DNA from: a virus
Strand: one strand, 5' to 3'
Length of the DNA stretch: 25,523 nucleotides
IMG/VR virus record: IMGVR_UViG_3300030012_001648
Location: 1-25,523 of that record
This document shows positions 2,624 through 14,351 of this stretch, piece by piece. The translations under genes were made by a program, and so were the position numbers. Each line of letters starts with the position of its first letter. Within the stretch, counting starts at the first letter, position 1. The notes beneath the pieces were generated by a model. It did not search any database, had not been told where the DNA came from, and saw only the letters and a program-made list of their open reading frames with translations.

Positions 2624-2679
2624 GGAATGGAAACATTGGCGTTGATTGGAGACGTATCACCCCTCAAGTGATGGACTCC

Positions 2680-2687
2680 TTTATATA
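2680..2687 (+). promoter_or_regulatory. Putative archaeal TATA box (TTTATATA)
   Basis: TTTATATA lies in a 100-base non-coding gap, 36 bases before the ATG at 2724. Archaeal TATA boxes sit about 25-30 bases before the transcription start, so initiation would fall near 2705-2715 and give a short leader. Almost every other gene here starts inside or directly after the previous one, so a dedicated promoter is notable. The motif is common by chance in AT-rich DNA, and no clear BRE is visible. Confidence 0.5.
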
Positions 2688-2723: not shown

Positions 2724-2930
2724 ATGATTAAGTTAAGAATTATGAATGAAACAGGCCACACAGAAGTTGTTCTTGCGAGCAATGATGTTATTGAGCAAAT
2801 TGACCGCCACCCTACACATTGGGTTTTTATTGATGGAGAACTGACAAGTCGAGAATCAATCACAGAAATTAACTGGGATTCGATAACATCAGTTGATTTA
2901 ACTCCTGCAATTGTTGGAGGAAATCTCTAA
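2724..2930 (+). CDS. Putative ubiquitin-like (beta-grasp, ThiS/MoaD-type) modifier
   Basis: This 68-residue protein has the expected order for a beta-grasp fold: strand (2-9), turn, strand (13-18), helix (20-29), strand (33-40), and a last strand leading to Thr60-Pro-Ala-Ile-Val-Gly65-Gly66. ThiS and MoaD end in a very similar Pro-x-x-x-Gly-Gly. Here two residues, Asn67-Leu68, follow the Gly pair, as in ubiquitin-like precursors that need trimming. An E1-like enzyme (9902) and a JAMM protease (11606) encoded downstream could supply activation and trimming; this link is inference. The ATG at 2724 is chosen because it lies just after the TATA-like box; a TTG at 2646 would start before it. A hairpin and a terminator follow. 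The similarity is by eye, and a plain sulfur-carrier role is the main alternative. Confidence 0.55.
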   Translation: MIKLRIMNETGHTEVVLASNDVIEQIDRHPTHWVFIDGELTSRESITEINWDSITSVDLTPAIVGGNL

Positions 2931-2959
2931 ATTTAGAGTATTTCTCTTTTCTCCAACAA
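2911..2959 (+). other. Long inverted repeat / hairpin at the 3' end of the Ubl-like gene
   Basis: TTGTTGGAG (2911-2919) pairs perfectly with CTCCAACAA (2951-2959). Inside it, GAAAT (2920-2924) pairs with ATTTC (2940-2944), enclosing the perfect palindrome CTCTAAATTTAGAG (2925-2938). The six bases TCTTTT (2945-2950) bulge on the 3' side. The hairpin covers the last codons and the stop of the preceding gene and could stabilise or end its transcript. Confidence 0.7.
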
Positions 2960-2964
2960 CCTTC

Positions 2965-3009
2965 GGGGGTAGCGTAAGGAATAATCCTCCTTGCGCTATC
3001 CCCTTTTTT
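2965..3009 (+). terminator. Strong hairpin terminator with T6 tail
   Basis: A 16-bp stem pairs 2965-2980 with 2988-3003, with two G-T wobbles and no mismatch, a 7-base loop (ATAATCC) and a TTTTTT run at 3004-3009. It resembles a bacterial intrinsic terminator; in archaea the T run alone can end transcription. Together with the hairpin just upstream it closes the short unit that starts at the TATA-like box near 2680. Confidence 0.75.
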
Positions 3010-3014
3010 GGGTG

Positions 3015-3395
3015 ATGCAACCCGACCTCTTCAATTTTATTGACCAAAATGGATTAAAAATAATGCTAGACCTCAAAGGATGGAAGTTATCATCCTGTAT
3101 TCAGATAAAAGGTTTAGCGATAGTAAAACCCGATTTCTACCCATGTAAGCATATCCTTGCTATGGGTAACAGGGGTTACATTTATGCCGATGGCGTAACT
3201 CGGATAGAATACGCAGGGCAGACGTTTTCATCAACAGACGATTTATTGAATCGTTGTGGTGAAGACGCTATTCTGAATTTTAAGGATTGGGTATTCCTTG
3301 AAGAAAAAGAATGGGTGATAACGGACGGTAATAAGTGGCTATCAACCTTTTCAAACCTTTCTGAATTACCTAAAAGAAGTACATATAGGTGTTAA
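3015..3395 (+). CDS. Hypothetical protein, 126 aa
   Basis: Unrecognised. The product seems to be a small globular alpha/beta protein with several Trp and four Cys but no clear zinc motif. The ATG at 3015 follows the terminator T run directly, with GGGTG touching it, so translation may begin on a very short leader. The codons look somewhat richer in C and G (CCC, CGG, GGG) than those of neighbouring genes, which may mean a separate origin. The stop lies two bases before the reductase ATG, and the sequence AGGTG in its last codons is the reductase ribosome binding site. Confidence 0.55.
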   Translation: MQPDLFNFIDQNGLKIMLDLKGWKLSSCIQIKGLAIVKPDFYPCKHILAMGNRGYIYADGVTRIEYAGQTFSSTDDLLNRCGEDAILNFKDWVFLEEKEWVITDGNKWLSTFSNLSELPKRSTYRC

Positions 3396-3397
3396 AA

Positions 3398-5263
3398 ATG
3401 ACTCAAGCCCCAAACAACAAAATTTTATCAGATATTACAGTTCACATGAAATATGCAAAATACAAACCCGAAGATTTACGAAGAGAAACTTGGGATGAAA
3501 TTGTTGAACGTAATATGGAAATGCACATTCGAACATATCCTCAATTAGAACAAGATATACGAGATGTTTATACTCACTTTGTAAAAACCAAGAAAGTATT
3601 ACCTTCTATGCGTTCTATGCAATTTGGCGGTAAGCCAATTGAAATTAGCCCTAATCGGGTCTATAATTGTGCTTATATGCCAATTGATACTCACATCGCT
3701 TTTAGCGAGGCTATGTTCCTATTATTGGGAGGAACAGGTGTTGGATATTCCGTTCAACGCCATCATGTTGAATTAGTTCAACCTATTCAACATCCTAATC
3801 CTAATCGTCAAAGAAGATATTTAGTTAATGATTCTATTGAAGGTTGGGCTGATGCAGTTAAGATTCTAATGGAATGTTATACTGGTATTAGAACATCAAC
3901 ACCAGTATTTGATTATTCAGATGTTAGACCAAAAGGCTCTCTTTTAAAAACTTCTGGTGGAAAAGCACCTGGCCCTCAACCATTAAGAAAATGCCTTGTT
4001 TTAATTGAAGGAATGCTACAAAACATTCCGAATGGTTCTAACTTAAAACCTATTCAAGCACATGATATTATGTGTCATATTGCTGATGCTGTTCTTAGTG
4101 GTGGTATTCGTCGTGCCGCCATGATTAGTTTGTTTTCGGCAGATGATATGGAAATGATTTCGTGTAAATCTGGTAACTGGTGGGAAAAGAATCCACAAAG
4201 AGGCAGGGCAAACAATTCAGCAGTATTACTACGACATAGAGTAACAAAAGATTTCTTTATGGATTTGTGGAACAGAATTAAAGCATCTGGTTCAGGAGAA
4301 CCTGGAATTTATTTTAATAATGATAAAGACTGGGGAACAAACCCATGTTGCGAAATTGCACTACGACCATATCAATTCTGCAACTTAACTGAAGTAAATG
4401 CTTCAGATATTGTAGACCAAGCCGATTTAGAATCAAGAGTATCTGCCGCAGCGTTTTTAGGAACATTACAGGCTGGATATACCGATTTTCACTATCTTCG
4501 TGAAGTTTGGAGAAGAAATACAGAAAAAGATGCACTATTAGGTGTATCAATGACTGGTATTGCTTCAAATGTCGTAGAGCATTTAGATTTAGAAATGGCT
4601 GCTTATGAAGTAAAAAAGGAGAATGAAAAGGTTGCTAAGTTAATTGGTATCAATCCTGCTTCAAGAACAACCTGTGTAAAACCTGCTGGAACTACCTCTC
4701 TTGTTTTAGGAACATCAAGCGGTATTCACGCTTATCACGACGAGTATTATATTCGTCGCTTGCGTGTTGGTAAGAATGAAGCAATCTATGGTTATCTCTC
4801 TGAAAACCACCCTGAACTAGTTGAAGATGAGTTTTTCAATCCGCACGAACAAGCAGTTATTTCAGTTCCTCAAAAAGCACCAAAAAATGCAATTGTAAGA
4901 CATGAATCAGTATTTGATTTGTTAGAACGAGTAAAGAATTTTAGCATTCGTTGGGTTAGAACTGGACACAAAGATGGTCTAAATACACACAATGTATCAG
5001 CAACAATTTCTATTAAAGATGATGAATGGGAAACTGTTGCCGATTGGATGTGGTTAAACCGACATTATTATAACGGACTGTCCGTACTACCATATGACGG
5101 AGGAACATACACTCAAGCCCCATTCGAGACTTGTGATGAAAAGACTTACAATGAATTAAGTGAAAGTCTTAAAGAAGTTAATTTAGAACAAGTAACAGAA
5201 CTTCAAGATGATACCGACCTCTCAGGTGAATTAGCCTGTGCAGGTGGCTCTTGCGAAATTTAG
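3398..5263 (+). CDS. nrdJ: Class II (adenosylcobalamin-dependent) ribonucleotide reductase
   Basis: This enzyme reduces ribonucleotides to deoxyribonucleotides using a B12 radical. The 621-residue protein has all the expected residues: Cys91 in an Asn-Cys-Ala-Tyr context (first redox Cys), Asn315-x-Cys317-x-Glu319 (the radical and proton-transfer triad), Cys328 eleven residues after Cys317 (redox partner), a Pro-Ala-Gly-Thr-Thr phosphate-binding stretch, and the C-terminal Cys614-x4-Cys619 that re-reduces the active site. The spacing matches the monomeric Lactobacillus leichmannii triphosphate reductase (739 aa), but the protein is shorter, so part of the allosteric or insertion region is probably missing. 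I chose ATG 3398 over a GTG at 3389 because AGGTG lies at proper distance. It would feed dNTPs to viral replication and needs host or environmental B12. Confidence 0.92.
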   Translation: MTQAPNNKILSDITVHMKYAKYKPEDLRRETWDEIVERNMEMHIRTYPQLEQDIRDVYTHFVKTKKVLPSMRSMQFGGKPIEISPNRVYNCAYMPIDTHIAFSEAMFLLLGGTGVGYSVQRHHVELVQPIQHPNPNRQRRYLVNDSIEGWADAVKILMECYTGIRTSTPVFDYSDVRPKGSLLKTSGGKAPGPQPLRKCLVLIEGMLQNIPNGSNLKPIQAHDIMCHIADAVLSGGIRRAAMISLFSADDMEMISCKSGNWWEKNPQRGRANNSAVLLRHRVTKDFFMDLWNRIKASGSGEPGIYFNNDKDWGTNPCCEIALRPYQFCNLTEVNASDIVDQADLESRVSAAAFLGTLQAGYTDFHYLREVWRRNTEKDALLGVSMTGIASNVVEHLDLEMAAYEVKKENEKVAKLIGINPASRTTCVKPAGTTSLVLGTSSGIHAYHDEYYIRRLRVGKNEAIYGYLSENHPELVEDEFFNPHEQAVISVPQKAPKNAIVRHESVFDLLERVKNFSIRWVRTGHKDGLNTHNVSATISIKDDEWETVADWMWLNRHYYNGLSVLPYDGGTYTQAPFETCDEKTYNELSESLKEVNLEQVTELQDDTDLSGELACAGGSCEI

Positions 5264-5272
5264 GTGAAAAAT

Positions 5273-5644
5273 ATGAAACTCTTCAAAAATTATGAAGAGT
5301 ATTTAACAACATTAATAACAATGATAAGAGATTTTTCAGAAGAATCTCACAAAAGAATAAGATTAGCAATAAACGTCTGTTCATCGTTACACGATGATAG
5401 AGAGAAAATATACAGGTTAAATACCTCTTTTAAAGAATGTCTTTGGGAAAAAGATGAAGCAATCATTATGGGATTTCATCAGTACATAGAAAAAGAATAT
5501 AAGAAAACAAGGGGCATTTTAGAATATCACGATGAAAACTGTGAAGGGCATAGTGACTGTGTAATATGTAACGATAGAAATAAAACAATCAAAAGATTGA
5601 GGAATAAAGATGAAAGAAAAGAATCCAGAATATGTTCAGAATAA
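5273..5644 (+). CDS. Hypothetical protein with Cys/His cluster, 123 aa
   Basis: Mostly helical and unrecognised. Near residues 88-101 there is a Cys/His cluster (His-x3-Cys-x2-His-x3-Cys-x2-Cys) that could hold a zinc ion. The ATG at 5273 has AGGTGA six bases upstream; an in-frame GTG at 5264 is part of that binding site. Its 3' end overlaps the next gene by 35 bases, more than the usual 4, so the tail past about residue 110 may be short of function. Confidence 0.6.
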   Translation: MKLFKNYEEYLTTLITMIRDFSEESHKRIRLAINVCSSLHDDREKIYRLNTSFKECLWEKDEAIIMGFHQYIEKEYKKTRGILEYHDENCEGHSDCVICNDRNKTIKRLRNKDERKESRICSE

Positions 5645-5771
5645 AAGAAAGAACAAAAAGGTAGCCACACGTTGTCGTGTGTGTGGAGGGCAACTTCTGA
5701 TTGCATCAGAAATTGCAAAAGAAATGCACGAAATGTGCGATAGAGATAATAAAAATATGTATATGATGTGA
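5610..5771 (+). CDS. Small zinc-knuckle-like protein, 53 aa
   Basis: The ATG at 5610 has TTGAGGAATAAAG upstream, the same style of ribosome binding site used throughout the window. The product begins with a Lys/Arg-rich stretch (residues 2-20), then Cys22-x2-Cys25-Gly-Gly and a helical tail with one further Cys at 43. It could be a small basic nucleic-acid-binding protein, but no family can be assigned. It overlaps the previous gene by 35 bases in another frame. Confidence 0.5.
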   Translation: MKEKNPEYVQNKRKNKKVATRCRVCGGQLLIASEIAKEMHEMCDRDNKNMYMM

Positions 5772-5775
5772 TAGT

Positions 5776-6900
5776 ATGAGATTGAGAATACCAAAACCAG
5801 ATGATAGTAGAACATACTATGATACTAATATTCGTTGTAATACTTACAATTTTGTTAATGAAAAAATTACACAAATAGATAGAAGTGCAAAAGACCCAAT
5901 CCAAAAAGGATTAGAAGATTTTTGGAAAAGTGTTTTATCTACTCGAAAAGGCCGAAGTCATTGGGATAATACCCGTATGTTTATGAATTTTGGACCGACC
6001 TTTAATCATGTTGTATTTATTAATGAATGTCCTGTTCTTCTCTCAAGAGAGGGGATTCGTTATCACTTAAATGGTAAGCCTTACAGTCTTTCTATTATTT
6101 GTTCAGCGTTAGCAAGATTAACATATAAATCTTGTTTTGAAGATAGTCCAGAAGTATTATTGTCTTATCTTTATTCTACTCTTGATTTACCAGAAAATGT
6201 AAAGTATTGCTTAGAAAACCGTGCTCCGTTTCATTTCTATAAAAATTATGAAAAGCAGGATGTTCGCTTGAATGTAATGCAGATTGATGATAAGATGATG
6301 GCAATAGAAATTAGTGATGGTGTTTGGGGAGAAATATCCGCAAAAGATTTAGATACTTATTGTAACTTTTATATTCACAATAAGTCAAGAGGTTCATGGA
6401 AACGCTTGTCTCCAAAGAAACTCTATACTCGTATTATGGGAGTAGAGCCTTCTAATTCTGAATTAGAAGTAATGATTGCTTTTCTTTTACAAAATCGAAT
6501 GCAAGACATTGTTGATTCAAGAGCAATGGAATTAGTAGATGATATGCTTCAACAATATGAAGGCCGTCTTTTTGCTCGCAGGGATGAAAAAGGTACACTA
6601 CAAACCATGTATGTTAAAGGAAGAGACTACGACTGGAAACTAACAAACAATTCATTCAAATCTGGTATTCAAATGGTTTCTACATTTGTTTGGCAACCCG
6701 ATGGCAATGGTATTCCAAAATGGCGTGGGCCAATTTGTATTGACAATATGGCCGAAGGTTCTCCGTTAGGCGACCAATTTGCAACAAGAGCATTAGCATT
6801 ATTAAATGATACTCACACAATTAAAATAGTAAATACGATTAGGACGTATCTATCGTCCCAACCAAATGTATATAGGAATGATGAATATGATGATTTGTGA
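5776..6900 (+). CDS. Large hypothetical protein, 374 aa
   Basis: I do not recognise this protein, although it is one of the longest in the window. It has no signal peptide, membrane segment, P-loop or clear metal-binding cluster. It looks globular with mixed alpha/beta content and many aromatic residues; a region around 95-125 is hydrophobic and helical, and the C-terminal 60 residues hold a Trp-Arg-Gly-Pro-Ile-Cys-Ile-Asp stretch. It sits between two zinc proteins and TFIIB in a tight run, so an early or regulatory role is possible but not shown. The start at 5776 follows the previous stop by four bases; the ribosome binding site is weak. Confidence 0.75.
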   Translation: MRLRIPKPDDSRTYYDTNIRCNTYNFVNEKITQIDRSAKDPIQKGLEDFWKSVLSTRKGRSHWDNTRMFMNFGPTFNHVVFINECPVLLSREGIRYHLNGKPYSLSIICSALARLTYKSCFEDSPEVLLSYLYSTLDLPENVKYCLENRAPFHFYKNYEKQDVRLNVMQIDDKMMAIEISDGVWGEISAKDLDTYCNFYIHNKSRGSWKRLSPKKLYTRIMGVEPSNSELEVMIAFLLQNRMQDIVDSRAMELVDDMLQQYEGRLFARRDEKGTLQTMYVKGRDYDWKLTNNSFKSGIQMVSTFVWQPDGNGIPKWRGPICIDNMAEGSPLGDQFATRALALLNDTHTIKIVNTIRTYLSSQPNVYRNDEYDDL

Positions 6901-7747
6901 AGAATGCAAAAGTGCTGATAACTATTTTGATGAAACTCTAGGTGAAAGAGTTTGCAATATTTGTGGATTAGTTTTAGTCCAAGATATGTTTGAAGAGACT
7001 GTTCATATTCTTGATAGGTCTGGTAATGTTGAACGTTCAGCCGATAAAGGCAAATTAGGTTCAGTTATTACTGGTAAAGGTTCTTATAAATTCAATAAGT
7101 TCGGTAAAAATAGTGTTGTTCCTCAACATATACAAAATGGATTGATGCATTGTAATATGGTTCTTTCTCAAGTAGCACCGAATATGGGTTTAAGAGAAAG
7201 AGTAGAAGAATTATATATGTCTTTACACAATAAGAATATCTTTGGGAGAAGTCAGTATGAAGCAAGAGCAACTGCAATTGTGTATTATGCTCTGAAAGAA
7301 AATGGCACACCACATACATTCAAAGACGTTTGTTCTGAATTTGAACCAAACATTAAAACAGTTAAGAGGCTGGTAAGAAAAATAAACCAAGTCTTTAGAA
7401 ATAAAGTAATCTACAAACCCGCAAATCCACAGTATCTTTTAACACAGACACTTACAAAGATTACTGATGATTTACTTTTTCAAAGACAATGTTTAAAAGT
7501 ATTAGAGTTCTTTGAAGCAAAGATTAGTAAAAACGCCTTCAACAAAGGTCGTTCTTACTATGCAGCGATAATCTGGATTGCTTCAAATATCTATGTAAAT
7601 AATCAGATTACACAAGTTATGCTAACCGAGAAAACTGGATTCTCTCGGTTTAATATACGAAGACAAACCAAACAAATACTTGCGATGGTTGGTTTAGAAT
7701 TAGCAAGTGAAGTAAAAGGAAAACAATTAAGTGAGATAGGTGAATAA
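6887..7747 (+). CDS. tfb: Transcription initiation factor TFIIB (TFB)
   Basis: TFIIB recruits RNA polymerase to TBP-bound promoters in archaea. The N-terminus has the classic zinc ribbon Cys4-x2-Cys7-x15-Cys23-x2-Cys26, with Gly-Glu-Arg-Val-Cys-Asn-Ile-Cys-Gly as in cellular TFBs. Two cyclin-like repeats follow (about residues 85-175 and 190-280), each with several helices, and the total of about 286 residues is close to normal. The linker holding the B-reader is present but divergent. Several in-frame ATGs (6866, 6878, 6881, 6887, 6890) lie inside the end of the previous gene; I chose 6887, which has a GATGA-type site upstream, but 6866 to 6890 are all possible. A viral TFB could direct host RNA polymerase to viral promoters such as the TATA-like box at 2680. 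Confidence 0.93.
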   Translation: MMICEECKSADNYFDETLGERVCNICGLVLVQDMFEETVHILDRSGNVERSADKGKLGSVITGKGSYKFNKFGKNSVVPQHIQNGLMHCNMVLSQVAPNMGLRERVEELYMSLHNKNIFGRSQYEARATAIVYYALKENGTPHTFKDVCSEFEPNIKTVKRLVRKINQVFRNKVIYKPANPQYLLTQTLTKITDDLLFQRQCLKVLEFFEAKISKNAFNKGRSYYAAIIWIASNIYVNNQITQVMLTEKTGFSRFNIRRQTKQILAMVGLELASEVKGKQLSEIGE

Positions 7748-7749
7748 AA

Positions 7750-8133
7750 ATGGAAGAAATATGCGAGAAACACGGACTAGAAATAGTCTCATATAGAGGA
7801 GATGAACCGTATTGTGATGAATGTCACATTGAAGACATTAAATTACAGTTGAAAGGACACACTAAAGATACTATTGCAAGATGGGTGTATAAAAATGCTA
7901 TACTAAATAGCGACACTTGGCCTAGTAACAAACAGAGCCAAATATATACACTCGATATGCTAAAGTATGTAGAAACCTTCGGTCTTGGATTTTATGATTC
8001 AGAAATCTTTGAAAAGGGTATGAGAAGATGGAATGTTATTTCTTGGGAATTACAAGAGATGTCTTGGCCTGATATTCAAGACAAATATAGAGAAAAATAC
8101 AATGAGGATTTAACTCATGATTTTTTTGATTGA
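7750..8133 (+). CDS. Zinc-binding hypothetical protein, 127 aa
   Basis: The N-terminus has Cys5-x2-His8 followed by Cys22-x2-Cys25-His, a likely one-zinc knuckle, and the remainder is helical with many Trp and Tyr residues. The family is not recognised. The start at 7750 follows the TFIIB stop by two bases with AGGTGA upstream, so it is probably cotranscribed with TFIIB. Confidence 0.65.
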   Translation: MEEICEKHGLEIVSYRGDEPYCDECHIEDIKLQLKGHTKDTIARWVYKNAILNSDTWPSNKQSQIYTLDMLKYVETFGLGFYDSEIFEKGMRRWNVISWELQEMSWPDIQDKYREKYNEDLTHDFFD

Positions 8134-8143
8134 GGTGTATTGA

Positions 8144-8326
8144 ATGGGATATATGAGTGAATTACATACTATGCTGAGTAACGGAGCAACTGTTCAAGAA
8201 ATAGCAGATTGGCTTTTCAGTTTGAAGGTAAGTCGAGGCCATGATATCAATGAAGAAACTTTAGAGGATTGTTACTTTACCGCTAAGCATTTTTATACAC
8301 AGTTTCATTACGGGAGTGGTGTTTGA
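8144..8326 (+). CDS. Hypothetical protein, 60 aa
   Basis: A small helical protein that I do not recognise. The segment around residues 14-30 (Ala-Thr-Val-Gln-Glu-Ile-Ala-Asp-Trp-Leu) has the look of a helix-turn-helix first helix, but the protein is too short to be sure. TTGAGGTGTATTGA provides the ribosome binding site. It ends in a TGATG overlap with the next gene. Confidence 0.6.
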   Translation: MGYMSELHTMLSNGATVQEIADWLFSLKVSRGHDINEETLEDCYFTAKHFYTQFHYGSGV

Positions 8327-8841
8327 TGCTTAGAACTAGATTTAGTGATATTAAGAATTTAGGAGTAATCTATGCAATGAAAGATATGTATGAGAGCAAA
8401 CTCTTGACAAAGGAAGAATATGATAATCTTCCCGAAAGACACATGGAAAGAGCAGTTCCTAACGAAATAAAAAGCAAACTGGATTATCATAATAAATTGT
8501 ATAGTTTTTTAGACACGAATCGTGATTCTCCTAGTTTTCCAAATCTATTGGAGTATAGGTCTTTTCATAGAACTATGCAAGCGAGATTGATTAGAGATAA
8601 TCCATATAATACGGCAACTTTTCCCACTATTGAACTTTTTAAACAAAAAGGTGGTTATAATAAGGGTCGCCCAAAGGGAGGAAAAAATTCTCCCAGAATG
8701 TCAAGAATGTTAATAAATTTATTTATATTTTCAGGGATTAAAACTAAAGAAGAAGTAGAGGATATAATTGGTAGAAAACTAACACCCGATGAAATTTATT
8801 CTTATGAACGAGTTGTGGAAGAATATGGTGATAAAAAATGA
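8326..8841 (+). CDS. Hypothetical protein with AT-hook-like motif, 171 aa
   Basis: Unrecognised as a whole. Around residues 111-120 it has Asn-Lys-Gly-Arg-Pro-Lys-Gly-Gly-Lys, close to the AT-hook core Arg/Gly-Arg-Pro that inserts in the minor groove of AT-rich DNA, followed by a helical C-terminal region. A DNA-binding role is therefore plausible in an AT-rich genome. ATG 8326 overlaps the previous stop by one base, with GTGGTG upstream. It ends in an ATGA overlap with the MazG-like gene. Confidence 0.65.
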   Translation: MLRTRFSDIKNLGVIYAMKDMYESKLLTKEEYDNLPERHMERAVPNEIKSKLDYHNKLYSFLDTNRDSPSFPNLLEYRSFHRTMQARLIRDNPYNTATFPTIELFKQKGGYNKGRPKGGKNSPRMSRMLINLFIFSGIKTKEEVEDIIGRKLTPDEIYSYERVVEEYGDKK

Positions 8842-9173
8842 GTGATAAAATGTTTGAAAAAGAATGGAATAAAATAGCAAAACAAATATATAAGAATGCA
8901 GTAAATCATGGTTTCTGGAAAGGAGAAGTCAATGATGGAGAAAGAATGGCTTTAATACACGCTGAAATTAGCGAAGCGTTGGAAGCACTTAGAGAGGGTA
9001 ATCCCTCTTCAAATAAGATTATTGAATTTAGTAATCTTGAAGAAGAATTAGCAGATGCAGTAATTCGTATTATGGATTATGCATTTGGTAAAGATTTAGA
9101 TATTGCAGGTGCAATTCTTGCTAAACTAGAATATAATAAAAGTCGTGAATTTATGCATGGTAAAACTTTTTGA
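8838..9173 (+). CDS. MazG-like nucleotide pyrophosphohydrolase
   Basis: The all-alpha MazG/dUTPase-like family hydrolyses nucleoside triphosphates, including non-canonical dNTPs, to monophosphates. Metal-binding residues are in place: Glu43-x2-Glu46 in Glu-Ile-Ser-Glu-Ala, and Glu70-x2-Asp73 in Glu-Glu-Leu-Ala-Asp. The C-terminal Tyr-Asn-Lys-Ser-Arg with a following His-Gly-Lys matches phage and small archaeal family members, and 111 residues is a usual length for a single-domain enzyme. ATG 8838 (ATGA overlap, GGTGA upstream) is preferred to ATG 8850. It probably cleans or adjusts the nucleotide pool alongside the reductase; an effect on alarmone levels, proposed for some phage MazG proteins, is also possible. 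Confidence 0.88.
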   Translation: MSDKMFEKEWNKIAKQIYKNAVNHGFWKGEVNDGERMALIHAEISEALEALREGNPSSNKIIEFSNLEEELADAVIRIMDYAFGKDLDIAGAILAKLEYNKSREFMHGKTF

Positions 9174-9183
9174 GGGAATCAAT

Positions 9184-9456
9184 ATGAAGAAAAAAACAAG
9201 TTTTGAAGAAATGATTACAGAACTACAAAATAAAGGAACGCAGGTTATTACAGCAGATGCCTGTATGTGCGCTAAATGCGTAGAAAGAAGAAAAAAGCAT
9301 GGAACAATACCAATGAGGGTTGTTCCTGAAAAATCAGATGACCCTATTCAGGAAGCAAACAGAAAAATGGCTATTGATTTAATGGCCGCTACCATGCGTA
9401 AAACTAAACAAGCACAAAGAAAAAGAAAAAATAAAAATAAGAAAAGGGAGAAATAA
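9184..9456 (+). CDS. Basic Cys-rich hypothetical protein, 90 aa
   Basis: The start is ATG 9184 with GAGGG upstream; an upstream in-frame ATG at 9145 lies inside the previous gene. The protein has Cys-Met-Cys-x2-Cys near residues 27-32, a possible metal site, and a strongly basic tail (about residues 72-90) that would bind nucleic acid non-specifically. No family is recognised. Confidence 0.6.
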   Translation: MKKKTSFEEMITELQNKGTQVITADACMCAKCVERRKKHGTIPMRVVPEKSDDPIQEANRKMAIDLMAATMRKTKQAQRKRKNKNKKREK

Positions 9457-9458
9457 AT

Positions 9459-9899
9459 ATGCAATTAGAAATAGGAATAGCAATAGGAAGCCTGACTACG
9501 GGAATAATCTTTATGATTATTAACCGTTTTATCAACCGCCCAACAACTTTTGAAGAGTTAAAACCAACTATACATGATAGGTTCAATACTGTAGTATGGT
9601 CTAAATTAACTAAACAAGGTATAGAGAGAAATAAGAACAACTTTAAATCTTTTACTCAATCAATTTATGGTTGGGATAAAGATGATGAAGGTAACTTAAC
9701 TCCTAATTGGGATGAACAGGCAGTTATTGATGAAATGAGAAGACTGAGAAAGGAGAATAATAGTTGGTCGGGAATCGCTAGAATTTTGAATGAAAAAGGA
9801 TTAAAAGGAAAAAGAGGCGGTAATTTTGGCCCACAAACAGTCAAAAGAACGATGGAAAATCCTTTCCATGATAAGAGAACACAATTTAAGGAGGAATAA
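9459..9899 (+). CDS. Membrane-anchored protein with serine-recombinase-like DNA-binding domain
   Basis: Residues 4-25 form one hydrophobic membrane segment. A linker (about 26-85) follows, and residues 86-136 match the DNA-binding 'Recombinase' domain of large serine recombinases: a helix, then Ile-Ala-Arg-Ile-Leu-Asn-Glu-Lys-Gly-Leu and a Gly-rich turn before a helix ending in Met-Glu-Asn-Pro. The catalytic resolvase domain with its Ser nucleophile is absent, and the N-terminus is a membrane anchor instead. The protein may tether viral DNA to the membrane, or may be a re-used recombinase fragment. GGGAGAAATAAATATG marks the start and GGAGGAATAAATATG starts the next gene. Confidence 0.6.
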   Translation: MQLEIGIAIGSLTTGIIFMIINRFINRPTTFEELKPTIHDRFNTVVWSKLTKQGIERNKNNFKSFTQSIYGWDKDDEGNLTPNWDEQAVIDEMRRLRKENNSWSGIARILNEKGLKGKRGGNFGPQTVKRTMENPFHDKRTQFKEE

Positions 9900-9901
9900 A
9901 T

Positions 9902-10459
9902 ATGAGAAATATATTAGTAATTGGAGCAGGAGGAATTGGAAGTTTTCTAATTCCTATTTTAGATAAAGTTGGTCTTTACCGCATTCATGTGGCTGACCCC
10001 GATGGAGTAGAAACAAAGAATTTACCCTATCAAAACTTTAAGAAAGGACACGTTGGACAGAATAAGGCTCAAGTAATGATGGATTCCTATGAATCTGTTG
10101 GTTCTTTTAGTAAATATCCTATCCTAACACAGAAACAAATGGAAGGATATGATTTAGTAATCTGTTGTGTTGATAATATTGGGGTTAGAAGAACCCTTTA
10201 CAACACAAGTCTTAAATGGCTCGACCTGCGAGCGCAGGGTAGAAACGCTGCACTTATCAGCCATAAGGCTGACGTTATGATGTATGATACACTTTTGAAG
10301 GGCGATGATAGGTCATATTCTTGTCAAGGCGATTCTTGGGATGGAACAAATAGTAATGTTCATTTTATGCAAGTTGCAATTGCAGGATTAGGCGCACAAT
10401 GGACTCAAAGATATTTTAATAATGAAGATGTAAGAGAATATATGGTGGTGAATGTATGA
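9902..10459 (+). CDS. E1-like / ThiF-HesA-MoeB family adenylyltransferase
   Basis: This family uses ATP to adenylate the C-terminal Gly of ubiquitin-like proteins. The protein shows the Rossmann loop Gly8-Ala-Gly-Gly-Ile-Gly-Ser14, Asp32-x-Asp34, then Asn40-Leu-Pro-Tyr-Gln44 where most E1s have Asn-x-x-Arg-Gln, the conserved Lys55 after Val-Gly-x-Asn, and Asp91 after a Cys-Cys-Val strand. At 185 residues it is a minimal adenylation domain, shorter than ThiF (about 250). It lacks paired CxxC zinc sites; Cys141 is the best candidate for a thioester cysteine but may be only structural. The loss of Arg in the Asn-x-x-Arg-Gln motif is a notable change. Its partners may be the modifier at 2724 and the protease at 11606. 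Confidence 0.85.
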   Translation: MRNILVIGAGGIGSFLIPILDKVGLYRIHVADPDGVETKNLPYQNFKKGHVGQNKAQVMMDSYESVGSFSKYPILTQKQMEGYDLVICCVDNIGVRRTLYNTSLKWLDLRAQGRNAALISHKADVMMYDTLLKGDDRSYSCQGDSWDGTNSNVHFMQVAIAGLGAQWTQRYFNNEDVREYMVVNV

Positions 10460-11613
10460 GAGGAAGAAAACCAAATCAAAAGAATTATGGCGGTGGTTCT
10501 AAGTGGACTGATGAGCAAATTGCTTTTCTTGTAGTAAGAAAGGCTATGGGTAATACTCATGCTCAAATTGCTAAAGCATTAAATCGAAAGTTCGGAATAG
10601 CGAGAACAGAAGGTTCTGTTACAGCCAAATACAAGGCTTTAATGAATCCAAAACCAGAAAAAGAACCAAAGTTCTCAAAAGAAGAAAAGGAATTTATTTA
10701 TGCTTGTGTTCGTAACAATTTTTCTGATAGTAGAATTATTGTCGGATTTTTGGAACAATACAAGAAAAATATTGATAAGACAGACATTTTAACAACATAT
10801 CAAGAGATGACAGTAAAAGAAAGAATTCAACATGAAAATAAAGTTGATAAAAATTTGACAAACCTAAAGTCAAAAATCAAGAAAAATCTTGAAAATAAAA
10901 TTAAGGAAAACAAAAAGGTGAAAAAAATGAAACAAATATATGGTGTCAAATGGACACAAGAAGAAGATGAAAAGATTGGAAAGTGCGCTAATGCCGCAGA
11001 AGCAGTATCATTGGGGCTGAACCGAACAGAAAGTGCGGTTCGCCAGCGTTACTATTCAGTTAAGAAAAAGAATAAGATGATGAAAAAGAATGCTCTTGTT
11101 CAAAAGAAAGGAGCAAAGCGTGGTCGAATGACTATTGCTGAACTTAAAATGATTCGTGATTGTGAAACAATCGAAGAAGCATTGGCTTTAAATTTGCGAA
11201 AGCCCGAAACAATTATTCGGCAATTTGCTAAACTTAAGTCACTTAAACCAGAAACTAAGAAGAAAAAGACCGCTAAGACTGAGCGTAAGAAATATACCCC
11301 TCGTTGGACGAAAGAAGAAGATTATGACCTTGTTCTAAACTTTTACGAACTTTCGATTGATGAGGCTCGTAACCGATTTAATCGGTCATATGGTGTTATT
11401 GCATCTAGGTTAGAAAAACTAGTGGATAGCACAGAACCTCATCATATTGAAATGCTTATGGAAGCGTCTAAGGAGATTAAGAAGCGGAAGAATCAGCCAG
11501 CCGTTGAGAAGCCAAAGAGCCGACGTGTCCTTCGTAGAGAGCGAAAAGAAGCAAAGAAATTGGCTAAGTTGCAGAAGAAAATGGCGAAGTTACAGGGTGA
11601 AATGAATGGATGA
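10456..11613 (+). CDS. SANT/Myb-like multi-repeat DNA-binding protein
   Basis: The 385-residue, very Lys-rich protein appears to hold four or five Myb/SANT-like units. The best begin Lys-Trp-Thr-x-Glu/Gln at about 16-62, Lys-Trp-Thr-Gln-Glu-Glu at about 165-203 and Arg-Trp-Thr-Lys-Glu-Glu at about 283-322; weaker units are at about 72-105 and 223-262. Each has the pattern of a Trp/aromatic-led helix, a second helix, and a recognition helix with Arg/Lys. Basic linkers and a C-terminal basic helix (about 345-385) separate and end the units. It is probably a DNA-binding regulator or architectural protein. ATGA links it to the E1-like gene before it, and its 3' end overlaps the JAMM gene start. 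Confidence 0.65.
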   Translation: MRGRKPNQKNYGGGSKWTDEQIAFLVVRKAMGNTHAQIAKALNRKFGIARTEGSVTAKYKALMNPKPEKEPKFSKEEKEFIYACVRNNFSDSRIIVGFLEQYKKNIDKTDILTTYQEMTVKERIQHENKVDKNLTNLKSKIKKNLENKIKENKKVKKMKQIYGVKWTQEEDEKIGKCANAAEAVSLGLNRTESAVRQRYYSVKKKNKMMKKNALVQKKGAKRGRMTIAELKMIRDCETIEEALALNLRKPETIIRQFAKLKSLKPETKKKKTAKTERKKYTPRWTKEEDYDLVLNFYELSIDEARNRFNRSYGVIASRLEKLVDSTEPHHIEMLMEASKEIKKRKNQPAVEKPKSRRVLRRERKEAKKLAKLQKKMAKLQGEMNG

Positions 11614-12139
11614 TGCGGAAGTTCAGTATTTGGAAGAAAAGCGCAAAGAAGCAGAAGATTCAATTAAAGAACACTTTGCTTTAGAGTTGGATAATATTCG
11701 TAGGCAAATTAGCCCTTCTGCAAGAATTGAAGATATTCCAGATGTAGCATTTCATAATCTTTCATTTCATGAAACTATTTGGGAGGCTTCAACAGAAATA
11801 CTCCCTCATCTTGAAGTACAAGTGGTTATCGACAAAAAGAATCAATGTTTTGTAACTACTGGTTCAGCAGGTTATGTTGAATTTGGCATGAATCCACCAT
11901 ATGGTGCAACATTGCCGATTAGATGTTGGATTCATACTCATCCTTTTGGTTCTGCCTATTTTAGTGGCGTTGATATTAGAACAGTATCTATTTGGCAACC
12001 AAACATGGAATGTGCTTATGTTATCGGTGGTATTGGTCATTATGGCTTTTGGGAACAGGATAACCCGAATCAATTAGAAATTACCTTAGATAATAAATTT
12101 CACAAAATACAAAAGTGGGACAAAACAGAGGAGGAATAA
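11606..12139 (+). CDS. JAMM/JAB (MPN+) metalloprotease-like protein
   Basis: JAMM proteases remove ubiquitin-like proteins from substrates or trim their precursors, using zinc. The full motif is present: His110-Thr-His112, then seven residues to Ser120, two more, and Asp123. This is the exact His-x-His-x7-Ser-x2-Asp pattern, with an upstream Glu (Glu92 or another in that strand) as the general base candidate. The fold predicted around it (strands near 70-95 and 105-112) fits the family. Residues 1-35 form an extra charged helix not in minimal JAB domains. It overlaps the SANT-repeat gene by eight bases. It could expose the Gly-Gly of the modifier at 2724. Alternatives are a tail-assembly JAB protein, as in lambda-like phages, or a counter-defence deubiquitinase. 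Confidence 0.87.
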   Translation: MDDAEVQYLEEKRKEAEDSIKEHFALELDNIRRQISPSARIEDIPDVAFHNLSFHETIWEASTEILPHLEVQVVIDKKNQCFVTTGSAGYVEFGMNPPYGATLPIRCWIHTHPFGSAYFSGVDIRTVSIWQPNMECAYVIGGIGHYGFWEQDNPNQLEITLDNKFHKIQKWDKTEEE

Positions 12140-12141
12140 AT

Positions 12142-12387
12142 ATGAAAATGAAAAAAGATATACCAGAACAATTGACAGTAAAGCAGCGACGAGATAGACA
12201 CCTTTTAAGTCATCCTAATGATAAAAACATTAGGAAATCTACAAAGGGTGTTACTTGGTCTAAGAAAACAGAAAGAGATAAGATGTTGAAGCAATTCTAT
12301 AAAGAACACATCTATACTTTTGTTGATGAAAATGACCTTTCAAAAAAGCGTTGGATTCGTATTGCAGGGTATGGTGGAGATGAATGA
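12142..12387 (+). CDS. Small basic hypothetical protein ending Gly-Gly-Asp-Glu
   Basis: An 81-residue protein rich in Lys and Arg, mostly helical, with a strand-like end. The start is ATG 12142 after AGAGGAGGAATAAAT, one of the strongest ribosome binding sites here. Its last residues are Ala-Gly-Tyr-Gly-Gly-Asp-Glu; a Gly-Gly followed by two residues, directly downstream of a JAMM gene, invites comparison with a modifier precursor. However, the rest does not look like a beta-grasp fold, and the Gly-Gly is encoded by the GGTGGAGATG that serves as the next gene's ribosome binding site. A basic DNA- or RNA-binding accessory protein is more likely. Confidence 0.6.
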   Translation: MKMKKDIPEQLTVKQRRDRHLLSHPNDKNIRKSTKGVTWSKKTERDKMLKQFYKEHIYTFVDENDLSKKRWIRIAGYGGDE

Positions 12388-12614
12388 AGGCTATTGGTGA
12401 TTATGCTATTGTAAAGATTGAGAATTCTATTTCTGAATCGGGTATTCAAGTAAAGACTGATGGTATGGGAATTGTAGTGTCATGTCCTAAATATCCAGAT
12501 ATTGAAGGTAAAAGAATTTTATTCGATGACCGCCATCGGTTTCCAACCCACAATGATTTTATATTTGTTAAGATAGAGAATCTTTTGGGAGTATTTGAGG
12601 AGGAAAATGAATGA
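12384..12614 (+). CDS. groES: GroES-like co-chaperonin (Cpn10)
   Basis: The co-chaperonin caps the GroEL ring to enclose a folding chamber. The protein starts Lys-Ala-Ile-Gly-Asp-Tyr-Ala-Ile-Val-Lys-Ile as GroES does, then a short Ser-Glu-Ser-Gly-Ile-Gln-Val segment corresponding to the mobile loop, a Gly-x-Val-Val strand, Gly-Lys-Arg-Ile-Leu-Phe, and the closing Ile-Glu-Asn-Leu-Leu-Gly-Val. At 76 residues it is shorter than GroES (about 97), mainly because the roof hairpin is missing. The start is an ATGA overlap with GGTGGAGAT upstream. It lies 230 bases before the GroEL-type gene, with only two micro-genes between, which supports the call. The similarity is by pattern. Confidence 0.75.
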   Translation: MKAIGDYAIVKIENSISESGIQVKTDGMGIVVSCPKYPDIEGKRILFDDRHRFPTHNDFIFVKIENLLGVFEEENE

Positions 12615-12742: not shown

Positions 12743-12849
12743 CCTATGAAGAATATGAAAGAATCATAGAAGCGATAAGGGGATGCCCTATGTCTATAAA
12801 AGAAAATATAGCAATTACTAATTTTATTAGAGGATTGGTGAAAGAATGA
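12739..12849 (+). CDS. Micro-protein, 36 aa
   Basis: A 36-residue helical protein beginning Met-Thr-Tyr-Glu-Glu-Tyr-Glu with one Cys. Both ends are ATGA overlaps, with the previous micro-gene and with the chaperonin gene. Its last codons contain the GGTGA ribosome binding site of the chaperonin, so one role may be translational coupling. No family is recognised. Confidence 0.45.
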   Translation: MTYEEYERIIEAIRGCPMSIKENIAITNFIRGLVKE

Positions 12850-14351
12850 TTATTAAAGGAAAAGAAGTTAAAGAAAAACTATTACAAGGAATTAATTTGG
12901 TTGCTGATACAGTAAAACCAACATTAGGGCCACAAGCAAAAACAGTTATTCTTCAAGGAAACCCACCAATTATCATTAATGATGGCGTTACAATTACAAA
13001 GTATGTTTCCCATGAAGACCCTTATGTTCAGATGGGGGTTCAAATGGTTCAAAATCTAGCAAGTCAAGCACAAGATAAATCAGGAGATGGAACAACAACG
13101 GCTTGTATTTTGGCACAGGCTCTTTGCAATAATTTGTTCAACAATCCACCAACAGAAACCGTTCATCAGTTTAATGAGTTGATGGAGAGCCTAAAGGAAT
13201 TTACAATCAATTGGCTTGATGAAATTTCTCTCGATATTGATGATAATAACATTAAGAATGTTGCTACAATCGCATCAAACAATGATGCAAATTTAGGTGA
13301 ATTGATTCAAGCGGCCTTAGCAAAGGTTGGTCGGGATGGTGTTGTTACTGTTGAAGAATCAAATAACTATCAAACACAATTGATTCTTCGTGAAGGTATG
13401 GAGATTCAAGAGGGCTATTTGAGTCATTTGTTCTGTAACACGGAAAATGGAAAGGTTGAATTTGATAATCCTATAATTTTTATGTCTAATATGTCTTTGA
13501 GACAATTTAAAGATGTTATGCCACTTCTTGAATATTCAGCAAGTAATAACCAACCACTTGTGATTATATGCAAAGGCATGGATGGTTCAGCACTTAACAA
13601 TCTACTGATGAATGTTATGAACAAAACAGTTGAATGTGCAGTAATTCTTGCACCAAACTTCGGTGATTCTCAGATTGATGAATTAGGTGATATTCAATCC
13701 TTAGTCGGAGGAAAGGTCTTTGTAGATGAAACAAGGGATGACCCTAAACTATTTACTACGTTTGATTTGGGTACTTGTTCTAAGGTGGTTATTACAAAAG
13801 AAACAACAACATTTGTTGGCGGTGAGGGAGATACTAAAGAAAGAATTAGTGCTTTAAAAGAACAGTCTAAAGAAGTCAAAGGGCATGAATTGGCTAGAAT
13901 TAAATCAAGAGTTGCTCGTCTAAAGGGAGGAGTCGCAACAATTAGAATTGGTGCTTCATCTTCTATTGAGATGAGAGAAAAGAAGGAAAGATTAGACGAT
14001 GCACTTAACGCTACAAAAGCAGCATTAGAAGAAGGTATTGTCGTTGGCGGAGGTAATGCGTTTTATAGATTATCATTTAGACCTTTAGTATCTATTTCAT
14101 TTCCAGAATGGTTTAGAGATGCGTTATTAGAACCAATGAAAACACTTATGCAAAATGGTGGAATTAATCAAAATATTCCTTCATCTCTTGCTACTGATGA
14201 AGGGTTCAATGCTCTTACTGGTAAATTTGAAAATCTTGCAGATGCAGGAATTTTTGACCCAGTAAAGGTAGCAAAGAATAGTTTCTTGGCCGCTATGTCA
14301 ATTGCTCAATTGTTTTATTCAACAGATGTAGCAGTATTGGTGGAGGAATAG
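12846..14351 (+). CDS. groEL: GroEL-type (group I) chaperonin
   Basis: The Hsp60 ring folds proteins using ATP. Key sites are present: Asp46-Gly-Val-Thr (equivalent to GroEL Asp52, needed for hydrolysis), Gly80-Asp81-Gly-Thr-Thr-Thr (equivalent to the Asp87 loop), and the hallmark Asp384-Asp-Ala-Leu-Asn-Ala-Thr followed by Glu-Glu-Gly-Ile-Val-Val-Gly-Gly-Gly, carrying the second ATP-site Asp. The C-terminal Gly-Ile-Phe-Asp-Pro-Val-Lys-Val is also typical. At 501 residues it is shorter than GroEL (about 545), with a reduced apical part and no Gly-Gly-Met tail. Cellular archaea normally use group II thermosomes, so a group I enzyme with its own GroES is notable. It probably folds capsid, tail or replication proteins. 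Confidence 0.95.
   Translation: MIIKGKEVKEKLLQGINLVADTVKPTLGPQAKTVILQGNPPIIINDGVTITKYVSHEDPYVQMGVQMVQNLASQAQDKSGDGTTTACILAQALCNNLFNNPPTETVHQFNELMESLKEFTINWLDEISLDIDDNNIKNVATIASNNDANLGELIQAALAKVGRDGVVTVEESNNYQTQLILREGMEIQEGYLSHLFCNTENGKVEFDNPIIFMSNMSLRQFKDVMPLLEYSASNNQPLVIICKGMDGSALNNLLMNVMNKTVECAVILAPNFGDSQIDELGDIQSLVGGKVFVDETRDDPKLFTTFDLGTCSKVVITKETTTFVGGEGDTKERISALKEQSKEVKGHELARIKSRVARLKGGVATIRIGASSSIEMREKKERLDDALNATKAALEEGIVVGGGNAFYRLSFRPLVSISFPEWFRDALLEPMKTLMQNGGINQNIPSSLATDEGFNALTGKFENLADAGIFDPVKVAKNSFLAAMSIAQLFYSTDVAVLVEE

Follow-up and report, generated by a model that had tools for sequence, protein, structure and literature searches.

A linked ubiquitin-like modifier, E1-type enzyme and JAMM metallopeptidase in marine archaeal viruses, and the pathway they may form

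A stretch of viral DNA (IMG/VR record IMGVR_UViG_3300030012_001648, 25,523 nucleotides; hereafter the window) carries genes for a small ubiquitin-like protein (UBL), a minimal E1/ThiF-type enzyme and a JAMM metallopeptidase. Do the three form the core of a single ubiquitin-like (Ubl) pathway, as had been inferred from the sequence alone?

By gene-set criteria the window is part of the genome of a Magrovirales-type virus (Aoguangviridae-like). Membership was judged against the descriptions in PMC10768690 and PMC5332604, without direct comparison with reference genomes; the criteria met were GroEL/GroES, TFB, the RFC small subunit, DNA polymerase B and an ATP ligase, a length of 90-110 kb and two opposite gene blocks. 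The window itself includes GroEL/GroES, archaeal RFC, TFB and RNR. Poseidoniales are the magrovirus hosts according to the literature; the viruses are reportedly widespread in surface ocean waters and infect uncultured hosts.

The three genes and their products

The UBL gene (2724..2930, + strand) codes for 68 residues. The program-made list of open reading frames began a longer version at a TTG at 2646; the ATG at 2724 was taken as the conserved start, as relatives align from that codon and ribosome-site-like GGAG/GGAAG lies upstream. The product ends in Pro-Ala-Ile-Val-Gly-Gly-Asn-Leu, with Gly66 as the presumed mature C-terminus. AlphaFold2, supplied with an alignment of 57 relatives, predicted a beta-grasp fold (EE-H-EE-H-E, pLDDT 88) with a C-terminal tail of low confidence, superseding a poor single-sequence prediction (pLDDT 53). 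Nearly all top structural matches of the model (Foldseek/VIA) were ubiquitin or Ubl proteins, with Z scores of 5.9 for MoaD, 5.4 for a bacterial Ubl from an E1-E2-Ubl complex, 5.0 each for TtuB and SAMP2, and 4.9 for ThiS. Prediction of another fold had been set in advance as refuting, and was not obtained.

The Z scores are low, for a 68-residue protein, and the beta-grasp is a common fold. No credible family was found for the UBL in Pfam, NCBIfam, PHROGs or PADLOC. A weak PinA-inhibitor match (best 1.4e-4, 34/57 members) stayed below cut-off where a cut-off was shown.

Among 71 distinct UBL copies the Val-Gly-Gly was invariant, each Gly using all four codons. It was followed by no residue in 17, one in four and two in 50, and these residues were hypervariable, which supports the proposal that the Gly-Gly is masked by two residues. 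The UBL thus meets the criteria of a Ubl protein, namely a beta-grasp fold, here predicted, and a flexible tail ending in Gly-Gly or Gly-Gly plus a short extension. Lysine was absent from 20 of the 71 copies and occurred once in 47.

The E1-type gene (9902..10459, + strand, 185 aa) gave a clear match to Pfam ThiF (PF00899, 3.9e-18), and this family scored above cut-off in all 26 viral genomes. The top NCBIfam match was ThiS adenylyltransferase ThiF (2.5e-12), and profile matches included NEDD8-activating UBA3, Cap2, UBA5, MoeB and ThiF. Invariant residues comprise GxGGIGS, D32, D34, N40, K55, D91, R96 and C141, with D91, K55 and C141 unchanged in 70/70 copies. The exception in the ATP site is the Arg of the N-x-x-R-Q motif, which is replaced by Tyr43 in all 70. 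C141 is the sole invariant candidate for a catalytic Cys (70/70); alignment by eye pairs it with a zinc-type Cys of full E1s. Full E1s have an N-terminal part and Zn-binding CxxC pairs that are missing from the viral enzyme, which also carries no rhodanese domain. It is a minimal ThiF/MoeB-type Rossmann domain with a nucleotide motif; that it adenylates is inferred, and is not assured because the N-terminal part and CxxC pairs are missing and the Arg to Tyr change is fixed.

The JAMM gene (11606..12139, + strand, 177 aa) codes for the motif H110-T-H112-x7-S120-x2-D123 with an upstream Glu (E70), and the Glu/His/His/Ser/Asp set was intact in every complete copy. The Prok-JAB match of the window protein (P0003) was weak (0.0024, below the curated cut-off); all 21 aligned relatives matched this family (best 1.7e-4). 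In a profile search of the PDB the top true JAMM match was AMSH-LP (0.003); WD40 matches were judged to be repeat or composition artefacts.

The sequence-only reading had placed the three genes correctly, all on the + strand, and its claims of a 68-residue beta-grasp-like protein ending in Gly-Gly-Asn-Leu (the fold by prediction), a minimal E1/ThiF domain and an exact His-x-His-x7-Ser-x2-Asp motif all held.

Linkage, context and expression signals

The UBL was encoded in 169 viral stretches and the JAMM protein in 316, and order and strand of the UBL, E1 and JAMM genes were conserved in 147/147 loci with all three; with these numbers and this fixed order, the UBL and JAMM genes are not chance reading frames. 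Co-occurrence was free of testable exceptions whether followed from the UBL scan, from the JAMM scan or from an independent marker, the last giving 71/71, 78/78 and 76/76. The marker was a 374-aa protein of unknown function (5776..6900, + strand) found in 70/70 compared loci; it is not claimed as a pathway member. Where the DNA was long enough, no related virus with E1 and JAMM genes was missing the UBL, and none was missing its Gly-Gly. The three genes are therefore linked across a large group of marine archaeal viruses; the co-occurrence that the sequence-only reading had proposed as a check held, and the observation is stronger than had been claimed.

Between E1 and JAMM in the window lies a gene for a Myb-like DNA-binding protein (10456..11613, + strand). 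A unit made up of E1, JAMM and this gene was dropped, and the Myb-like gene is not a core part, since it is missing in lineages where E1 adjoins JAMM. Downstream of JAMM, and given for context only, are a GroES-like gene (12384-12614, + strand; assigned by sequence and position only, without a family match) and a GroEL gene (12846-14351, + strand; family match 7e-93).

The UBL gene is flanked by promoter-like and terminator-like signals of its own, shown at the level of sequence and prediction. A TATA-box-like element (CTTTATATA, 2679..2687, + strand) precedes its start, and a TATA-like hexamer was present at -52..-25 in 50/73 distinct UBL upstream regions, compared with 5% of random windows and 11/90 E1 upstream regions. 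A terminator-like 16-bp hairpin followed by T6 (2965..3003, + strand) lies 3' of the stop codon; the mean folding energy of this region was -32 kcal/mol (70 loci), compared with -14 for random stretches.

Location bears on one alternative, in which the JAMM protein processes the UBL for a structural or assembly role, as with phage lambda tail assembly proteins I and K, and the function of the E1-like protein is a different one, such as that of a peptide-modifying or redox-type Rossmann enzyme. In its favour are the UBL-JAB pairs known from lambda and T1 tail assembly (PMC1779556) and the fixed Arg to Tyr change in E1. Against it, the three genes share the replication/early strand with TFB, RNR and GroEL and are not placed among tail genes; the remaining ATP-site residues of E1 are invariant, and the E1 gene is inseparable from that of the UBL. 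This alternative is considered very unlikely.

The proposed pathway and its rivals

The reading favoured here, as somewhat more likely than not (probability about 0.58), is that UBL, E1 and JAMM constitute a single virus-encoded, E2-less Ubl pathway resembling SAMPylation. The UBL would be produced from its own transcription unit, and the JAMM peptidase would remove the mask of one or two residues where present and so expose the Gly-Gly. The minimal E1 would then adenylate the C-terminal Gly of the UBL, with Cys141 possibly serving as thioester carrier, and the activated UBL would be joined to viral or host proteins without E2 or E3, as in archaeal SAMPylation. The JAMM protein would also detach the UBL from its targets. 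Attachment is expected as single units rather than chains because the UBL is nearly free of lysine. Fold, motifs, invariant Gly-Gly, gene linkage and separate expression signals are shown by sequence or prediction; adenylation, cleavage, conjugation and removal are inferred, without biochemical data. There is archaeal precedent for a Ubl, E1 and JAMM set without E2 in SAMP1/HvJAMM1 (PMC4443979; see also PMC6043591). A search for E2 (UQ_con) in the 26 genomes gave no match, and its positive control was silent too, so that the result is uninformative.

Unmasking, named by the sequence-only reading as an obvious task of the JAMM protein, cannot be its only one: 17/71 distinct UBL copies are unmasked, yet JAMM is kept. 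It was present in all 17 tail-less UBL rows, i.e. in all tail-less lineages sampled, and mapping the tail-less state onto the tree of the E1 requires about six changes, of which well-supported branches force four or more. The JAMM protein therefore has a task beyond unmasking, and a role in unmasking alone was dropped.

The main rival is a viral sulfur carrier. Here the capped UBL would be trimmed by the JAMM protein and adenylated by E1, after which a persulfide donor of the host would convert its C-terminus to a thiocarboxylate, and the sulfur would pass to a host or viral acceptor (e.g. in tRNA thiolation), as in QbsE/QbsD/QbsC of thioquinolobactin or PtmS2/PtmS1/PtmS4. The anatomy of such capped carriers is shared, with Gly-Gly capped by two further residues (MV) or a single one (C) and a JAMM peptidase gene adjoining (PMC6006322); ThiF-type models give the viral E1 its highest scores, and structural matches of the UBL include MoaD, TtuB and ThiS. 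Against this, TtuA/TilS-type PP-loop, rhodanese, MoaE, ThiG and CysM-type PALP proteins were without a match in the 26 viral genomes, in searches whose positive controls did match, the E1 has no rhodanese domain, and JAMM is retained where the cap is missing. CysO-type systems are an exception, having a JAMM protein without a cap; a PALP enzyme would be expected there. Missing viral acceptors do not rule out host ones, and sulfur carriage remains possible, though less likely than the pathway above. Because capped sulfur carriers and their JAMM peptidases (QbsE/QbsD, PtmS2/PtmS1; PMC6006322) match in anatomy, protein tagging is not settled: the inferred link of the three genes as the core of a Ubl-like pathway is supported, and tagging itself is not shown.

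Counter-defence against the host SAMP system was also considered, the viral JAMM protein removing tags that the host has attached and the viral UBL and E1 acting as competitors of SAMP and UbaA in the host. In its favour, many JAMM proteins of archaeal Borg elements have been proposed to act as deSAMPylases and one Borg has a SAMP (PMC12660748), and Ubl conjugation in bacteria is anti-phage (PMC10097602). For stripping, however, JAMM alone would suffice, yet all three genes are co-retained without a testable exception, and the UBL's own Gly-Gly and variable mask appear tuned to its own processing. This explanation is unlikely.

A bolder form of the pathway reading, held with no more confidence than its opposite, is that a whole lineage of abundant archaeal viruses has, as a core function, a complete Ubl conjugation cycle of its own, which runs from a masked modifier through activation without E2 to unmasking and removal by JAMM and serves to tag proteins of host or virus in the course of infection. 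Both the modifier and the minimal E1 would then represent new families.

Comparison with known systems

Like the viral set, the SAMP system (SAMP1-3, UbaA, HvJAMM1) is archaeal and has Ubl proteins with a C-terminal Gly-Gly, one E1, one JAMM protein and no E2 or E3, and SAMP2 is among the structural matches. It differs in being cellular, and archaeal Jab genes, unlike those of the viruses, are seldom linked to Ubl genes (PMC2948915). The viral E1 falls outside the UbaA family (28.4 bits with NF047750, whose cut-off is 450).

The capped sulfur-carrier cassettes (QbsE/QbsD/QbsC; PtmS2/PtmS1/PtmS4) share a Gly-Gly masked by one or two residues, its exposure by a JAMM protein, and ThiF/MoeB-type activation (PMC6006322). 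They are bacterial and have known dedicated sulfur-acceptor enzymes, whereas none was recognised in the 26 viral genomes; unlike these cassettes, tail-less viruses also keep JAMM.

PRTRC plasmid cassettes and bacterial Bil-type operons had been named as known relatives. The former likewise combine ThiF, JAB (protein A) and a small Ubl (protein C), and PRTRC_ThiF is a close relative of the viral E1 (4e-10), the top annotated plasmid matches also being PRTRC. The viral E1 stayed below the PRTRC_ThiF cut-off (39.4 against 144.75 bits), the UBL and JAMM proteins matched no PRTRC model in NCBIfam, and other PRTRC parts were not seen. A PRTRC_B search found no match, and was uninformative as its positive control was also silent. 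Bil/Bub/CBASS operons resemble the viral set in having Ubl, E1 and JAB genes, the top structural matches of the UBL include a bacterial Ubl, and PADLOC E1-E2 models match the viral E1 (4.5e-9). These operons include an E2 and protect cells from phage, whereas the present set is in a virus and no E2 was recognised, in a search without a working control.

Lambda and T1 tail assembly proteins I and K are a viral Ubl and JAB pair (PMC1779556), but are late tail genes without an E1, the JAB being fused to NlpC/P60. Borg deSAMPylases are JAMM proteins on an archaeal mobile element (PMC12660748); they form multicopy families, with a SAMP in one Borg, and a linked UBL-E1-JAMM set is not described there.

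Pairs of UBL and JAB in viruses, and JAMM proteins on mobile elements, were thus known before. What appears new, as far as accessible literature goes, is that modifier, E1 and JAMM occur as a linked set that is fixed in an entire lineage of head-tailed archaeal viruses; no earlier report of such a set was found, as the sequence-only reading had supposed. Ubiquitin, ThiF and JAB are unmentioned in the main text of accessible magrovirus papers, and prior annotation elsewhere (Philosof 2017, Zhou 2023, Prabhu 2025) is not excluded. If protein tagging is true, the set would amount to a viral conjugation system in minimal form; if sulfur carriage is true, these viruses would draw on host sulfur chemistry in an unusual way. 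The core lends itself to reconstitution in E. coli or Haloferax, a rare handle on magrovirus effects on the cell, the hosts being uncultured, and the variable cap after the invariant Gly-Gly offers a simple first test.

In a genome scan the only contigs with the UBL belonged to a single MAG, labelled Altibacter sp. EAC109, and are most likely virus contigs that had been mis-binned.

The modifier, E1 and JAMM genes

The ubiquitin-like modifier (UBL) is encoded at 2724-2930 of the window (68 aa) and ends in PAIVGGNL. The E1 (9902-10459, 185 aa) matched Pfam ThiF at 3.9e-18, and the JAMM metallopeptidase (11606-12139, 177 aa) carries H110-x-H112-x7-S120-x2-D123 with an invariant upstream Glu (E70). 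Searching viral contigs for the E1 gave 28 loci, in which UBL, and likewise JAMM, was found wherever the sequence extended far enough. A UBL profile search returned 169 encoding stretches; E1 was present in 76 and JAMM in 74 of the best 80, the six misses being loci or contigs that stop first. A JAMM profile search returned 316; E1 was present in 75 of the best 80 loci, the five without it beginning less than 700 bases from the JAMM, and none of the 80 lacked UBL given at least 6.7 kb upstream. An unrelated conserved gene (5776-6900) was chosen as bait against circularity, and at its testable loci UBL was present in 71/71, E1 in 78/78 and JAMM in 76/76. The order UBL, E1, JAMM on one strand was kept in all 147 loci with the three genes; UBL-E1 spacing was 2.5-6.7 kb, and E1 directly adjoined JAMM in 25 loci. 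These counts are not independent events, because many loci share contigs, and viruses outside the lineage were not sampled by the bait, since that gene itself belongs to the lineage. The three-protein set proposed by the sequence-only reading thus held in its linkage, with fixed order and no testable exception within the lineage sampled.

In 50/73 distinct loci a TATA-like hexamer precedes the UBL start by 25-52 bases (background: 5% of random windows, 11/90 E1 upstreams). The 90 bases 3' of UBL had a mean fold of -32 kcal/mol vs -14 for random stretches, and in the window the gene is followed by a 16-bp hairpin and then six T. From these signals UBL is likely, judged from sequence alone, to be its own transcription unit.

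Directly 5' of E1, a small ORF (9459-9899) begins with a hydrophobic stretch and contains a segment of the Recombinase family (Pfam 1.6e-6). In many lineages, though not all, E1 and JAMM are separated by a repeated Myb-like DNA-binding protein (10456-11613).

Tagging or sulfur transfer

The UBL was recognised by none of the family libraries searched. An AlphaFold2 model from 57 relatives (pLDDT 88, pTM 0.71) predicted strand-strand-helix-strand-strand-helix-strand, with the end disordered from about residue 62. Foldseek matches were led by ubiquitin, NEDD8 and Ubl domains (best E-value 5.5e-3, weak given the short protein), and VIA-align Z scores were 5.9 for MoaD, 5.4 for bacterial Ubl, 5.0 for TtuB and SAMP2, and 4.9 for ThiS. 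V-G-G was invariant in 71/71 distinct UBL/E1 pairs, and all four codons were in use at each Gly; the constraint therefore acts on the protein. Of the 71 distinct UBLs, 50 have two residues after Gly-Gly, 4 have one and 17 end at Gly-Gly itself; the tails occur in about two dozen spellings. Lysines were absent from 20/71 and single in 47/71 (usually Lys3), so lysine-linked chains are unlikely, as inferred from this content.

All 70 distinct E1s share the GxGGIGS loop, D32, D34, N40, K55, D91, R96 and C141, and all 70 have Tyr43 where other E1s have Arg after Asn (N-x-x-R-Q). Full-length E1s have an N-terminal segment and paired Zn cysteines; by eye, the viral E1 lacks both. Its profile matched structures of bacterial ThiF-type proteins, UBA3, Cap2, MccB, UBA5, MoeB, Uba4 and ThiF. 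The PRTRC_ThiF model of the PRTRC plasmid cassettes matched the E1, but well below its cut-off, as did the ThiF and 6A-MBL Cap2 models.

The window JAMM matched Prok-JAB below cut-off; all 21 relatives matched (best 1.7e-4). The motif was intact in 70/70 complete JAMMs, a 71st being truncated by its contig end. The sequence-only reading was upheld for the minimal E1/ThiF domain (ATP-site residues invariant save Arg to Tyr43) and for the His-x-His-x7-Ser-x2-Asp motif. Its beta-grasp-like modifier held at prediction level, as a Ub/Ubl-type fold; its masking idea was supported too, with 17/71 copies having no mask.

Mapped on the E1 tree, absence of the tail requires some six changes, of which four or more fall on well-supported branches. 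The JAMM was intact in 17/17 tail-less rows and is therefore kept even without a mask to remove. Conjugate removal is the natural reading, though inferred from sequence alone; trimming of other adducts remains possible.

Tagging of proteins is moderately favored (probability about 0.58), by inference from sequence and prediction. A sulfur-carrier system is a possible but less likely rival. The layout is the same in capped sulfur carriers that are paired with a JAMM (PMC6006322), so anatomy alone cannot decide; ThiF-type models scored best on the viral E1, and donor and acceptor could come from the host. Against it, none of the PP-loop ATPase, rhodanese, MoaE, ThiG or PALP families was matched in 26 viral genomes (control genomes gave matches), and JAMM is retained in tail-less lineages.

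Virus identity and other records

The window (25,523 bases, G+C 34.6%) encodes GroEL (7e-93), a GroES-like protein, an archaeal RFC small subunit (5.5e-59), TFB and ribonucleotide reductase (RNR). ATP-dependent DNA ligase and DNA polymerase B were read from the sequence, and both families were confirmed in one relative (G008), where structural and replication genes occupy opposite strands. Relatives are contigs of 85-97 kb. This gene set, size and layout match Magrovirales, and especially the published accounts of Aoguangviridae (PMC10768690) and of the GroEL-bearing MGII virus clades (PMC5332604). Poseidoniales as host is taken by analogy from these papers only. The bait protein (374 aa), encoded between RNR and TFB and present in 70/70 compared loci, matched nothing in Pfam, NCBIfam or the PDB and nothing credible in PHROGs.

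As a kind, Ubl with E1 and JAMM is already known in archaea and bacteria. Lambda TAPI/TAPK is a viral UBL-JAB pair (PMC1779556) and Borgs carry mobile JAMM proteins (PMC12660748), whereas the magrovirus-type set is complete, with UBL, E1 and JAMM. The newness claimed for such a set in an archaeal head-tailed virus met no precedent: no complete, fixed set was found in the literature searched, which did not cover some key magrovirus papers.

In crAss-like phages a JAMM adjoins an E1 in the replication region (PQ006092, 2598-4654; MT074136, Bacteroides phage DAC15, 2551-4660); existing annotation calls the pair hypothetical or E1 family protein. The JAMMs carry HSHNNMPTFFSGTD (Prok-JAB 2e-4) and HSHHTMGAFFSGTD (6.5e-5), and the E1s matched ThiF at 6e-15 and 2e-14, respectively; no partner UBL was identified for either pair. 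A MAG labelled Altibacter sp. EAC109 has UBL on three of its contigs, one of which also encodes E1 and JAMM; these three are likely mis-binned virus contigs, and one of them (L191) has the most divergent UBL copy (48% identity), with IVGG plus two residues kept. Record IMGVR_UViG_3300021958_000021 (184,733 bases), possibly a joined or chimeric assembly, holds two distinct whole-region copies (L012 and L028) about 90 kb apart, with differing UBLs.
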